Shown here: piece by piece, positions 35,380 to 47,300 of the stretch
Layout: each line of letters begins with the position of its first letter
How positions within the stretch are numbered: position 1 is the first letter of the stretch
DNA from: Siniperca chuatsi
Taxonomy: Eukaryota > Chordata > Actinopteri > Centrarchiformes > Sinipercidae
Direction: 5' to 3'
Assembly: GCF_020085105.1 (NCBI RefSeq)
Contig: NC_058055.1
Coordinates: 12,936,822 to 13,000,821, forward strand
DNA length: 64,000 nt
Position numbers and translations under genes: made by a program
The notes under the pieces: generated by a model
Databases searched by the model: none
Seen by the model: the letters and a program-made list of their open reading frames with translations, nothing else
What the model was told of the DNA's origin: nothing

Positions 35380-38300
35380 CTGCAATGAACCACGACGTGA
35401 TCGTGTCTGACTACGTGTCCAAGATTCTATGTTCCACTCCTGGTTAGCTCCATTTGATATTTACCTTGCAAATCATTTGTTCCTCGATTCCAATATGACG
35501 TTTCTACATACTGTGCATCAAAGTGCATTAACATTTGAATGGAGCCACATAATAGACGAATTGCCTATCAACATGTGTTAAGAGGCCTCTGAACTCTTCA
35601 CTTTCAGTCACTCACAGCAATCATGAGGCCTTTGTTGTTTTTAGAAAAAACATCTGTAGAACTTGACTGTCTTTTGTCACACATCATTCAGGAAACCCAT
35701 GCAGATAAAATAGTGGTGCATTTGATATTGAGAGCTCACAATATCCTACGACAACAAGGAGGCACCCAGTAAACCACGTGGCCGTGATCGTATAGTGGTT
35801 AGTACTCTGCGTTGTGGCCGCAGCAACCCCGGTTCGAATCCGGGTCACGGCAGCAGTTGCCAACTTTGCTTCAAGCTGTTGTACAAAGTACTCCAACCTC
35901 TCTTTTACTTTATATAGTTTGTAATTGGAAAGCTCAACCTAATTCTCCTGTGTGACGCCCCGTATTTTCCGAGGCCCCATATTTTCCAACACGACCAGTG
36001 TGTTCTCCACACTTGTCTAGGAAGTACAAGACCACAGCCTTCTGTATGCAATGCTGTCTGAACCAAGCTGTTCCCAGACTTTGCAGCGTGCAGGGCTAGT
36101 GGCGCAATGGATAACGCGTCTGACTACGGATCAGAAGATTCTAGGTTCGACTCCTGGCTAGCTCGGTTTGACCTTTAGCCTGCAAACCACTTGTAGCTCC
36201 ATTCCAATATTCCATCTCTACATACTGCTTATCAAAGTACATTGACATCTGCAATGAATGACGCGTCTGACTGCGTGTCCAAGATTCTATGTTCCACTCC
36301 TGGCTAGCTCCATTTGATATTTACCTTGCAAACCACTTGTAGCTCCATTCCAATATGACATTTCTACATACTGTGTATCAAAGTGCATTAACATTTGAAT
36401 GGAGCCACATAATAGACGAATTGCCTATCAACATGTGTTAAGAGGCCTCTGAACTCTTCACTTTCAGTCACTCACAGCAATCATGAGGCCTTTGTTGTTT
36501 TTAGAAAAAACATCTGTAGAACTTGACTGTCTTTTGTCACACATCATTCAGGAAACCCATGCAGATAAAATAGTGGTGCATTTGATATTGAGAGCTCACA
36601 ATATCCTACGACAACAAGGAGGCACCCAGTAAACCACGTGGCCGTGATCGTATAGTGGTTAGTACTCTGCAGTAGCAACCGAACCGGGTCACGGCAGCAG
36701 TTGCCAACTTTGCTTCAAGCTGTTGTACAAGTACTCCAACCTCTCATTTACTTTATATAGTTTGTAATTGGAAAGCTCAACCTAATTCTCCTGTGTGACG
36801 CCCGTATTTTCGAGGTTACCAGTGTGTTCTCCACACTTGTCTAGGAAGTACAAGACCACAGCCTTCTGTATGCAATGCTGTGAACCAAGCTGTTCCCAGA
36901 CTTTGCAGCGTGCAGGGCTAGTGGCGCAATGGATGCGTCTGACTACGGATCAGAAGATTCTAGGTTCGACTCCTGGCTAGCTCGGTTTGACCTTTAGCAA
37001 GATTCCATTCCAATATTCCATCTCTACATACTGCTTATCAAAGGACATCTGCAATGAAGCTCCTGACTTGTCCAAGATTCTATGTTATTAGCTCCATTTG
37101 ATATTTACCTTGCAAATCATTTGTTCCTCGATTCCAATATGACATTTCTACATACTGTGCATCAAAGTGCATTAACATTTGAATGGAGCCACATAATAGA
37201 CGAATTGCCTATCAACATGTGTTAAGAGGCCTCTGAACTCTTCACTTTCAGTCACTCACAGCAATCATGAGGCCTTTGTTGTTTTTAGAAAAAACATCAG
37301 TAGAACTTGACTGTCTTTTGTCACACATCATTCAGGAAACCCATGCAGATAAAATAGTGGTGCATTTGATATTGAGAGCTCACAATATCCTACGACAACA
37401 AGGAGGCACCCAGTAAACCACGTGGCCGTGATCGTATAGTGGTTAGTACTCTGCGTTGTGGCCGCAGCAACCCCGGTTCGAATCCGGGTCACGGCAGCAG
37501 TTGCCAACTTTGCTTCAAGCTGTTGTACAAAGTACTCCAACCTCTCTTTTACTTTATATAGTTTGTAATTGGAAAGCTCAACCTAATTCTCCTGTGTGAC
37601 GCCCCGTATTTTCCGAGGCCCCATATTTTCCAACACGACCAGTGTGTTCTCCACACTTGTCTAGGAAGTACAAGACCACAGCCTTCTGTATGCAATGCTG
37701 TCTGAACCAAGCTGTTCCCAGACTTTGCAGCGTGCAGGGCTAGTGGCGCAATGGATAACCCCCCCCCCCCCCCCCCCCCCCCCCCCCCCCCCCCCCCCCC
37801 CCCCCCCCCCCCCCCCCCCCCCCCCCCCCCCCCCCCCCCCCCCCCCCCCCCCCCCCCCCCCCCCCCCCCCCCCCCCCCCCCCCCCCCCCCCCCCCCCCCC
37901 CCCCCCCCCCCCCCCCCCCCCCCCCCCCCCCCCCCCCCCCCCCCCCCCCCCCCCCCCCCCCCCCCCCCCCCCCCCCCCCCCCCCCCCCCCCCCCCCCCCC
38001 CCCCCCCCCCCCCCCCCCCCCCCCCCCCCCCCCCCCCCCCCCCCCCCCCCCCCCCCCCCCCCCCCCCCCCCCCCCCCCCCCCCCCCCCCCCCCCCCCCCC
38101 CCCCCCCCCCCCCCCCCCCCCCCCCCCCCCCCCCCCCCCCCCCCCCCCCCCCCCCCCCCCCCCCCCCCCCCCCCCCCCCCCCCCCCCCCCCCCCCCCCCC
38201 CCCCCCCCCCCCCCCCCCCCCCCCCCCCCCCCCCCCCCCCCCCCCCCCCCCCCCCCCCCCCCCCCCCCCCCCCCCCCCCCCCCCCCCCCCCCCCCCCCCC

Positions 38301-44300: not shown

Positions 44301-47300
44301 TCCATCTCTACATACTGCTTATCAAAGTACATTGACATCTGCAATGAATGACGCGTCTGACTACTTGTCCTAGATTCTATGTTTGACTCCTGGTTAGCTC
44401 GATATGATATTTAGCTTGTAAATCACTTGTTCCTCGATTCCAATATGACGTTTTTACAAATTTCCAATTTGACCCAGTCATTTGACTGGCTCCATTCAGA
44501 TTGTAGGTTCGACTCCCGGCTAAGTCGTTGTGTACTTTAGCTTGTAAATCCAATATTTTATCTCTACATACTGTGTTTCAAAGTAAATTAACATCTGAAT
44601 GGAGCCAAATAATAGAGAAATTGCCAATCAACATGTGGTTAGAGGTGTCTGAAGTCTTCACTTTCAGTCCCTCAAAGCAATCATGAGGCCTACTGTTTTT
44701 TTTATTGTCATTTGCTACTCATCTTTCTTTGAAAAACAAAAGGACATAGAAAGCAGTGCTAGATAAACTCACAAATCATTTAGGAAACCCATACAGATAA
44801 AATTGTAGTACGCTTATTTGACCGCTGTTCTCCACACTTGTGATAACGGATCAGGAGGTTTCTCGTTTAACTCTTGGTCAATTTGGGTCTTTTGGAATAA
44901 GCTTTAATTTGCTTTGCTTTATCTTATATAGAAATTAAAATTTTCCATTTGTTACAAAATAATACCACAAGTCTGACCAGTAGACCAAGAAACATTTAAC
45001 TCACTTGGTTATCATGCTTTATTAATGTTTCTCTCTCTCTCTTTGTAAAATATACTACATTTTTTGTAAAATAAAAAGTGACAAAAAAGGTGTCTGTGTG
45101 TGTGTGTTGGTACCTGCAGCATTGCCATGCTGTCATCAGTCTTGCCTCTCTGTGCTTCCAATTCTGCACCTTCGACCATCAAAAGGGCTTGAATATCGAC
45201 GTCTCCCCATAGAGCACATTCATCAAGACCCTCCTGTATCACCCGAGCTGTCTCCTCATTAATGTTCTTACCTTAAAAAGACAAGCCCCCCACACACACA
45301 TTTATATGTACACACACACACGCACACACACAGATTAAATATATATGCCTATATATATACCTATATGCAGCAAATGTCATTGGTTATAATATACCAAGCC
45401 TTGTTTTGTGAAACAATGTAAAGGAACGGGGTAAAGTAGTCCTCCATGTATTTTTCAAGTGTACACCCAGTACTACTTTGCATAGGAGGGAAAATTAACA
45501 AATTTTTTGTAATTCTTTTAGTATTAGTCAAACTGTTTTAGCATACAATACACCACTCAGAAAAAAAAGAAAGTGCAGCACAACATATGACCAGACCTGG
45601 GAAAAGGGCAGCAGTGCCAGGGATGTGTGCAGCCAGGCTACGGACCAGAGCCAGGCGGCAACGCAGCCACAGAGAAACTCCAATTCTCTCACTGGCCTCA
45701 ACTGTTCTGGGACAGTCTCCATGCTGGGGGTTTGACACACTGTAATCTTTAGTACACCATAGACAGGATATAACCCACATAAACACATGCATACACACCA
45801 TGTACAATCAATCACCATTCTACTGCCCCAGAGTGGTGATGTGCACAGTTTACAGTTTGTTTTACAACTGGTAACACACATTTATCAATACTGAGTTCAC
45901 CTTCCACCTTACTCTCCATTCCTCAACCCCAAAGAAGAATTATTTTCCTCATGGAGATGGAACGTTTATGACCACCGTCCACATGATTAGATGTCCTTCT
46001 TGGACAGAATGAATGCTGGATGTCTGGACATATCTACAGAAGATTGCCAGGGATGGATCAGACATGCAAAAAGATTCTTTCCAAGGTGTGTTGCAAAAGA
46101 GGACAGAAGGTGTGATGTGGATGAGAACTTGGCCAAGAAGGAATGGTTGACAAGCACTGTTGTATTTCTATATCTATAGCTCTCCTATCTAAGTATGTAT
46201 AGTGAATATGTATAGTTTTGTTTTGCATTACTGGAATTACTTTAGTTTCATTATGTACACTTGAAATTACACTATGCAAAAATGGCAAAATTATTCAAGC
46301 ATATTGCAGAATTTCTGATTAATTTCTGTGACATACTGTAAGCTAGCACAATCCATGCAGTAAAGAAGTGTTATCTTATTTTTGTTGTAATGGAATCTTG
46401 GTTTATGCTAAATAAATAAATAAAAGATACTTCAAAGACAATAGTGACACATATTGTAATGCTACCTGTTGTTAGTGTTTTTTTTAGGTCATTGTGTCAT
46501 GAGAAACAAAGTGTTACTACTATTCTGGTACAAGAGTTGACCCTGAGATGTGTATGAAGTGCATTTTGGATGTGAGGTTAACCCCGAGCTGCACGTTGGT
46601 AAAAAGAACTGTCTGAACAATTATAAAAAAGTGAACTCAGTATAGAGAAATGTGTGTTACCAATTAGCAACATTTCAGCTGCTAAAACATTCAGAGGTAC
46701 CACTTTTATGTTGTTGTTGTTGTTGTTGTCTGCAGTTTCACTGCAGGTGGTTATGTTGGTTGTAATAATGTTATGTTCTGTAATGTTTACGACACAGTAC
46801 ACAGATAGGGATTTCATTTGCTTGTGTTTTGTTCAAAAATCAACTTATTTGATTCTGCAACTAATTTATTTAAACATGCTACCTGTTCACTTTCAGTCTT
46901 GGCGTGTGGGAGCTCAGACGCAGGTTTCTGAGAGACAGGTATGGATCCTCTCATGATTACAGGAGATGTCTGCAGCAGCACCAAGGATGAAACTGCAATC
47001 TCAGAGCTGAAGGAGGATGTTAAAATGGTTAGGAAATACAAACATAAGCATGTAAATTCACACACAGTACACATGGTTAAGGCTGCCGTACCTAAGTGCA
47101 GCATGTCCTTGCTGCAGGTATAAGTTGGCCTTTAGAAGATGGGACTCTATTGCCAGTTCCAGGTTCTCCATTTCGCTACAGGACTGAGACATGAGCTGAT
47201 GCGAGTGCAACAAGGAGGACGCTCCTTCTAGCAAAAGAAACTACAACAGAGGAGATGACAGATAAGTTAATGCAAACAAGTTAGAAAAAAAGCTGCTTCA

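Follow-up and report, generated by a model that had tools for sequence, protein, structure and literature searches.

Transfer RNA genes (tDNAs) are predominantly clustered in some teleosts, with 65% of zebrafish and 87% of stickleback tDNAs residing in clusters, and are mostly isolated in pufferfishes and medaka (PMC2888827). In the heterogeneous clusters of zebrafish and stickleback, tRNA genes lie parallel to one another and to pseudogenes at distances within 1 kb, with two or more isotypes represented, and teleost clusters can be large; zebrafish pairs are mostly mixed, the most frequent in Danio being K-N, K-S and R-T, and a mixed Arg/Thr cluster is described in the Figure 4 legend of the same study (PMC2888827). 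His-Arg is not among the pairs named in the portion of that paper drawn on here. The locus analyzed here is likewise a heterogeneous tandem cluster, in that it contains tRNA genes lying within 1 kb of each other, which represent more than one isotype, share one orientation and recur as a repeated unit together with their spacers; it differs from the zebrafish and stickleback clusters in that its stored sequence is damaged. We consider it most probable (roughly 0.87) that the locus is an ordinary, locally amplified tRNA cluster, probably from a teleost, at which the assembly is probably broken.

The biological gain would be one further mixed tRNA array in a genome that already holds several. 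The same genome carries 28 Lys(TTT) genes spaced ~1.2 kb apart, arrays of 35 Thr and 15 Cys genes and, on C14, 20 further matches mostly ~0.82 kb apart, all three of those sampled being Tyr. An array on C24 comprises 29 Ile genes, 7 Arg(TCG) genes and 1 gene of undetermined isotype; like the locus under study it is tandem, confined to one strand and built from two interleaved isotypes, but it has more genes and other isotypes, and is free of long homopolymer runs across the 20 kb examined. A preceding sequence-only reading had stated that tandem tRNA clusters are known in fish and had called a mixed His/Arg unit inside a large cilia-gene intron striking; that a mixed unit is striking is not supported, given the Ile/Arg(TCG) array of this genome and the published mixed zebrafish clusters (PMC2888827).

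tRNA genes and repeat unit

ARAGORN and Rfam model RF00005 concordantly identified eight tRNA genes in the window (the whole 64-kb stretch of DNA that was analyzed), every one of them on the plus strand and inside the array. Three are tRNA-His(GTG) genes, at 35781-35852 and 37425-37496 (60.9 bits each) and at 43452-43523 (54.0 bits, with one change in the T arm). The other five are tRNA-Arg(ACG) genes, at 36093-36165 and 43764-43836 (57.5 bits each), 36915-36984 (a 3-base deletion, also evident from unit alignment), 39084-39156 (52.9 bits, with A in place of T at position 5 of the gene) and 41098-41170. RF00005 scores range from 46.8 to 60.9 bits, all eight exceeding the gathering cut-off of 29, and are lower for the genes at 39084, 43452 and 36915 that carry changes. 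The sequence-only reading had counted at least three full His and four full Arg genes; the calls number three and five, one of the five Arg genes being short by 3 bases. Single-strand folds of six genes are modestly better than those of shuffled sequences (z from -2.58 to -0.56), the fold of the Arg gene at 39084 being equalled by 60 of 200 shuffles. The eight genes occupy ~8 kb, with His-Arg pairs separated by 240 bases.

The array appears to have arisen at a single locus by head-to-tail duplication of a unit of ~860 bases bearing one tRNA-His(GTG) and one tRNA-Arg(ACG); unequal exchange is the probable mechanism. A clean reference copy of 860 bases (unit A, 35444-36303, plus strand) consists of a spacer, tRNA-His, a 240-base spacer, tRNA-Arg and an Arg-derived tail. 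Unit C (37088-37758, plus strand), which stops in its own Arg gene at a run of C, matches unit A at 669 of 671 bases, and a clean unit on the right (43272-43974, plus strand), carrying the His gene at 43452 and the Arg gene at 43764, is identical to unit A in 699 of 704 aligned columns. The spacers are thus part of the repeat, and the clean units compared are more than 99% alike. The His-Arg spacing described earlier as a conserved 240 bases proved exact in all three units in which both ends are readable, including one whose Arg gene is cut by a C run after 22 bases; the three spacers differ from one another at 0, 1 and 1 positions.

The remaining parts of the array, all on the plus strand, are less regular. 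A blastn comparison of the left flank with the array places the left edge, a partial Arg-derived repeat, at 35374-35443, where it extends across the putative acceptor site of a minus-strand exon resembling CFAP54; the sequence TTCATTGCAG occurs on the minus strand at 35389 and at nine further places, all within the array. Unit B (36304-37087) carries a damaged His copy near 36644 and, in its damaged part, the Arg gene at 36915. On alignment with unit A its first 369 bases are free of deletions, and 17 deletion events and 2 insertions lie beyond, 4 of the 17 inside His or Arg; 8 of its 11 substitutions fall in the first 73 bases and represent a tail variant. A partial unit at 38908-39871 is noisy over approximately its first 70 bases and clean thereafter, and includes the Arg gene at 39084. 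The right edge (43975-44875) contains Arg-derived tail repeats with a spacing of 146 bases and a His remnant at 44108, followed by flank. His-derived remnants fused to Arg-derived sequence occur at 39634, as a truncated copy in the partial unit, and at 41442 and 44108. Because these fused remnants and the tail repeats recur in the clean right edge, they look like real decay.

Pol III genes carried by a repeated unit might alternatively signify a mobile element, either a tRNA-derived SINE or a tandem TRIM of the Helenus type, whose LTR would contain a tRNA-like promoter. In Helenus elements, too, the repeated unit includes tRNA-like Pol III sequence, and one zebrafish family, LTR-11_DR, forms tandem arrays (PMC10886601); they differ in possessing LTRs, a PBS, a PPT and many dispersed copies, whereas the His-Arg unit, in the part searched, is present at one locus only. 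A genome search with 35639-36300, a query beginning 195 bases into the unit, gave matches that, away from this locus, covered essentially only the tRNA bodies, and no copy of the searched spacer was found elsewhere. A primer-binding-site-like match was not found on the plus strand, where the best for both tRNAs was 9 of 14 bases; the 13/14 matches on the minus strand are the 3′ ends of the His copies themselves. Each unit, moreover, holds two well-scoring tRNAs with the expected anticodons. We regard such an element as the least probable of the explanations weighed here, and rejected the Helenus or SINE identity on the finding that the query retrieved no unit copies beyond this locus. Viral contigs contained no exact match to two patterns from the unit, a result of little weight.

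Homopolymer runs and deletion-rich sequence

The array is interrupted by three pure runs, which we read as artefacts of assembly or base calling: 1149 C at 37759-38907, 713 C at 42195-42907 and, joined directly to the latter, 365 A at 42908-43272. A genome-wide pattern search found only five C/G runs of at least 34 bases in 719 Mb, two of them in the array and three at two other repeat sites. One of these sites is a 32-base minisatellite in which 673 G are joined to at least 627 A; at the other, beside an integrase-like frame, 296 C are joined to 34 G. Neither a C/G run of 15 nor an A/T run of 25 occurs in any of 17 ten-kb stretches chosen for their tRNAs, three of which contain runs of N. Features expected of artefacts, homopolymer tracts and deletion-dominated noise, are thus present here, and long runs, the feature checked for in the comparison arrays of the genome, are absent from those arrays. 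Deletions are the commonest error of nanopore reads (PMC8486125); homopolymer overestimation is mentioned for the same technology, but the portion of that source drawn on here describes no runs of hundreds of C.

An error-ridden stretch at 39872-40965 is collinear with the unit on the plus strand, matching it at 906 of 1094 bases with 201 deletion events, 38 insertion events and 39 substitutions (alignment score 775, compared with 40 +/- 15 and a maximum of 79 in 100 shuffles). In ten bins from 39974, each 100 bases contain 17-29 deletion events and 0-5 substitutions; the bin at 39874 is rich in insertions (12, versus 3 deletions). The right edge of the array, furthermore, occurs twice. Aligned with 43728-44876, its first copy (41062-42194, plus strand), which holds the Arg gene at 41098, shows 7 substitutions and 12 deletion events and not a single insertion. 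The 12 deletions are confined to the part from 44115 onward, on the side closer to the C run; 6 of the 7 substitutions fall at 43866-44090, apart from the deletions, so the copies do differ genuinely, and may represent two haplotypes or else a second copy that truly exists. How significant the excess of deletions is varies with the fraction of natural indels taken to be deletions: at 70%, P is 0.014 for the right edge (12/12), 0.046 for unit B (17/19), 0.20 for 38908-39294 (8/9) and 3.5e-7 for the error-ridden stretch (201/239), and at 75% the corresponding values are 0.032, 0.11, 0.30 and 4.6e-4.

It is conceivable that the assembly is correct, and that the region contains old, decayed His-Arg units together with genuine C and A tracts hundreds of bases long. 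The presence of the fused His remnant in the clean right edge as well is consistent with this possibility, as is the ordinary divergence of that edge from other units, which reaches 13 substitutions and 16 deletion events per 100 bases. Ageing, however, would hardly produce the ratio of deletions to substitutions seen in the error-ridden stretch, and the only two other sites of comparable C/G runs are both repeats with two joined pure runs. We therefore judge a wholly correct assembly to be very unlikely. In the His copy near 36644, the Arg gene at 36915 and the content of 39872-40965, most departures from the clean unit are deletions grouped in blocks, as is the case with read errors, and most copies that appear decayed are probably read errors, a term that here describes an interpretation of the sequence pattern. 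The decayed copies reported earlier accordingly divide into the fused remnants and tail repeats, for which the description appears to hold, and these deletion-dominated copies, for which it probably does not.

For the favored reading, that of an ordinary tRNA cluster with a broken assembly, the pattern suggests that the assembly retained low-quality long-read sequence prone to deletions, along with the C and A runs, and that the right edge was placed twice. The sequence-only reading had not reported the C and A runs, the error-ridden stretch or the doubled right edge. That copy number or decay could be read from this assembly is not supported: with the assembly probably broken at the array, the number and state of the units are unreadable. 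Automatic annotation of the locus would list tRNA pseudogenes, as well as C and A tracts hundreds of bases long, that most likely do not exist in the animal; screening a genome for pure C/G runs of at least 34 bases exposes such damage (five runs at three sites in 719 Mb) and could act as a quality flag.

Pol III signals and terminators

A B box is present in all eight array tRNA genes, and a strict A-box pattern is matched by all five Arg genes and by none of the three His genes. Pol III would be expected to transcribe each gene into an ordinary tRNA. None of the eight, however, is followed by TTTT within 30 bases; the first TTTT lies 51 bases downstream of His, and there is none in the 150 bases downstream of Arg. 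Elsewhere in the genome, TTTT occurs within 30 bases of 10 of 12 His genes and all three Arg(ACG) genes sampled. With no TTTT nearby, the output of each gene may be low, or transcription may run through into the spacer.

We considered whether the tandem tRNA arrays of this genome generally lack terminators, since in an initial sampling TTTT was found within 30 bases in a single one of 143 genes from arrays, eight of which came from the window, versus 11 of 11 others. This idea failed on wider sampling. In the Tyr array on C14, T5 occurs at +5 in all three copies examined, and among Thr and Cys genes with no second match nearby only one of five has TTTT within 30 bases. Seven of 40 small stretches contained no tRNA; the other 33 yielded 34 tRNAs, some of them array members, and 22 of the 34 have TTTT within this distance. 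A TTTT terminator is thus usual without being strictly required, since several genes for Thr and Cys are likewise devoid of it, and its absence distinguishes the His-Arg array only from other His and Arg(ACG) genes.

Placement relative to CFAP54

CFAP54 exons to the right of the array, on the opposite strand, are clear from 64 kb to ~49.5 kb and weaker at 48-49 kb. An open stretch at 45114-45266 (minus strand) ends in the splice-donor-like sequence CAG|GTACCA in phase 0 and is treated as a CFAP54 exon solely on account of its strand and its place in the exon series, as it has no alignment of its own to CFAP54. The candidate for the next exon, at 35247-35379 (minus strand), scores 0.8 bits against 9ijj_H, the solved CFAP54 used for exon comparison, and its phase mismatches the donor at 45114. 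A search for CFAP54 whose query combined the left exons with 7 residues from the right exon returned nothing at E up to 10, and one with the whole right exon retrieved mostly ankyrin/DARPin look-alikes, with no CFAP54 among the 40 matches listed. The proposed location within a CFAP54 intron is therefore weak, CFAP54 exons being clear on the right beyond ~49.5 kb and doubtful from the 45.1-kb exon leftward; the assertion that the array faces against its host agrees with the strand of the CFAP54 exons on the right.

This opposing orientation raises the possibility that intronic Pol III transcription of the array slows CFAP54. There is a precedent in the MIR of Polr3e intron 1, a Pol III unit that lies within a Pol II gene in antisense orientation and lowers Polr3e, with protein reduced ~1.5-fold; placed in an EGFP construct, it reduces expression when antisense and not when sense (PMC5358760). 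That MIR, however, is a single conserved element whose role is supported by occupancy and knock-out evidence, whereas any such role of the array would be hypothetical. The intron placement is itself weak on the left side, and the missing TTTT fits weak genes and longer antisense read-through alike. An effect on the host is conceivable but unlikely. We give still less credence to an extended version, in which a long array that varies among individuals and lacks TTTT would be read through by Pol III as a long antisense transcript across a putative CFAP54 intron, tuning CFAP54, with the poor sequence resulting from the length of the array. Intronic tRNA genes in both orientations are also found in Caenorhabditis elegans, where 44% of 609 tRNA genes are intronic, a proportion not different from chance (PMC4999229). 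The genes treated in the portion of that work drawn on here differ from the array in being single rather than a tandem mixed unit, and effects of host promoters were shown there.

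A mixed His/Arg tandem tRNA cluster

Across the 64-kb window, ARAGORN and Rfam concordantly identify eight tRNA genes, all on the forward strand from 35781 to 43836, comprising three His(GTG) and five Arg(ACG) genes, one of the latter with a 3-base deletion. The clean unit A (35444-36303, 860 bases) consists of a spacer, the His gene, exactly 240 bases, the Arg gene, and an Arg-derived tail with a repeat spacing of 146 bases. In all three units that are readable at both ends, the internal His-Arg spacer is 240 bases long, with 0, 1, and 1 differences. The tandem His/Arg array with 240-base spacing proposed by the sequence-only reading is thus borne out, far beyond chance. 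The cluster, which that reading had considered striking, is real but ordinary in kind.

Tandem tRNA arrays are common in the same genome (718,788,923 bases scanned in 65 contigs, with the window at C14:12,936,822-13,000,821); their abundance, together with genes of vertebrate type, suggests a teleost. They include a Lys(TTT) array of 28 genes (sampled stretches L020-L023), Thr arrays of 35 (L017-L018) and 12 (L024) genes, a Cys array of 15 genes (L019), and a mixed array at C24:5.181-5.201 Mb (L032-L033) with 37 calls in 20 kb (29 Ile(AAT), 7 Arg(TCG), and 1 undetermined). Another array, at C14:22.079-22.095 Mb, lies on one strand and has 20 A-box hits, mostly ~0.82 kb apart; all three Tyr(GTA) genes sampled from it contain an intron, with T5 located at +5. 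In the sections of PMC2888827 drawn on here, clustered tDNAs are put at 65% in zebrafish, where heterogeneous pairs predominate, and 87% in stickleback, and those of pufferfishes and medaka are described as mostly isolated. None of the literature matches listed mentions a His-Arg unit, but this argues only weakly for absence.

The unit might alternatively be a dispersed element such as Helenus. When 35639-36300, which starts 195 bases into the unit, was used as a genome query, the matches outside the locus, among the best-scoring candidates, covered essentially the tRNA bodies only, and this speaks against a dispersed element. Helenus is dispersed, as the relevant part of PMC10886601 describes it, whereas the searched part of the array unit is essentially confined to one locus. 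The strong primer-site-like matches occur on the reverse strand, where they correspond to the ends of the array's own His copies.

Homopolymer runs and probable sequence damage

Part of the stored array sequence is most likely artefactual. Two blocks break up the array: a pure run of 1149 C at 37759-38907 and, at 42195-43272, 713 C that directly abut 365 A. Outside them, the longest runs in the window reach 10 for A, 12 for C, 10 for G, and 14 for T. These long runs went unreported in the sequence-only reading, as did the noise-like stretch and the doubled right edge described next. The noise-like stretch 39872-40965 aligns collinearly with the tandem unit at a score of 775, whereas 100 shuffles scored 40 ± 15 (maximum 79) and six other stretches of the window 31-78. 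The differences in this alignment comprise 201 deletion events and 38 insertion events, alongside 39 substitutions. The ten 100-base bins from 39974 each hold 17-29 deletion events and 0-5 substitutions, and the bin at 39874 departs from them with 12 insertions and 3 deletions. The clean middle of the units is indel-free in most 100-base bins, and the pattern of real divergence here, that of the true right edge against the other units, amounts to at most 13 substitutions and at most 16 deletion events per bin. Unit B (36304-37087) is free of deletions relative to unit A over its first 369 bases and then accumulates 17 deletion events, four of them within His or Arg, and 2 insertions. The right edge of the array is stored twice (41062-42194 and 43728-44876), the copies differing by 12 deletion events, no insertions, and 7 substitutions. 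Six of the substitutions fall at 43866-44090 and one adjoins the C run, and all 12 deletions lie at or beyond 44115; the near part therefore resembles a pair of alleles or copies, and the far part a poor read. The weight of the deletion excess hinges on what fraction of natural indels is taken to be deletions, and short blocks do not show it strongly.

In a genome-wide pattern count, windows of 100 C numbered 1861 in the forward and 574 in the reverse direction, and by arithmetic 1664 of the forward windows belong to the two C runs of the array. A second pattern found only five C/G runs of at least 34, two in the array and three on contig C16. From C16:3740501-3741173 onward (L094, L095), where a 32-base minisatellite ends, a run of 673 G directly abuts one of at least 627 A; the damage there is of the same sort as in the array. 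At C16:4455779-4456108 (L096, L097), 296 C directly abut 34 G, and the neighboring frame encodes an integrase zinc-binding domain (E 8.9e-21). Two different pure runs meet directly in three of the four blocks. No C/G run of 15 or A/T run of 25 occurs in the 17 ten-kb stretches picked for tRNAs, three of which contain N runs.

The simplest reading of the damage is low-quality long-read sequence left behind in a few repeats. The portion of PMC8486125 cited here reports that nanopore errors are most often deletions and mentions overestimated homopolymers, describing none of hundreds of bases; in attributing the long C and A runs to such sequence, we infer beyond its remarks on homopolymers.

Pol III signals

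All eight genes contain a B box, and the strict A-box pattern is present in 5/5 Arg and 0/3 His genes. Folded singly, six of the eight gave z values from -2.58 to -0.56. TTTT occurs within 30 bases downstream of none of the eight, the nearest lying at 51 for His and none being found in 150 bases for Arg. Elsewhere in the genome, it occurs within 30 bases in 10 of 12 sampled His genes and 3/3 Arg(ACG) genes. Judged by this difference in sequence, the array copies may perform poorly as genes, or transcription may run on past them. In the Thr, Cys, Lys, and Ile/Arg arrays (L017-L026, L032, L033), the 30 bases downstream of nearly every gene lack TTTT; the Tyr array has it there. A rule that tRNA arrays in general are without terminators failed on test.

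The CFAP54 host gene and neighboring genes

The array was also proposed to lie antisense within a CFAP54 intron. Reverse-strand exons from 64 kb to ~49.5 kb clearly match a solved CFAP54 chain (9ijj_H; E 2.3e-76 and 5.2e-16), with a CFAP54_N domain at 63695-63991 (reverse strand, E 5.3e-25) and a weak match at 48-49 kb (5.8 bits). The presumed next exon (45114-45266, reverse strand), placed by strand, order, and donor site without an alignment of its own, ends in phase 0, whereas the candidate exon on the left (35247-35379, reverse strand), which aligns in order at 0.8 bits and whose acceptor sits within the array edge, needs a phase-2 donor. The mismatch means that one boundary is wrong or that a small exon has been missed, perhaps within the damage. 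Because of the 0.8-bit alignment and the mismatched phases, the intronic position is only likely. The presumed acceptor TTCATTGCAG (35380-35389, reverse strand) recurs as the same 10 bases at nine more array sites, so that cryptic acceptors are possible. A putative effect of the array on CFAP54 would have a precedent in Polr3e, where, in the part of PMC5358760 consulted, a Pol III unit affects its host gene. Intronic tRNA genes are common in C. elegans, at 44% of 609, a share that does not differ from chance according to the pertinent part of PMC4999229.

Elsewhere in the window, on the reverse strand, pieces of 2-oxoacid dehydrogenase acyltransferase and biotin/lipoyl domains lie at 12558-12797 and 17328-17582, which we take to be DLAT/PDHX-like, and a calponin-homology domain piece lies at 30807-31031 (E 2.4e-07).
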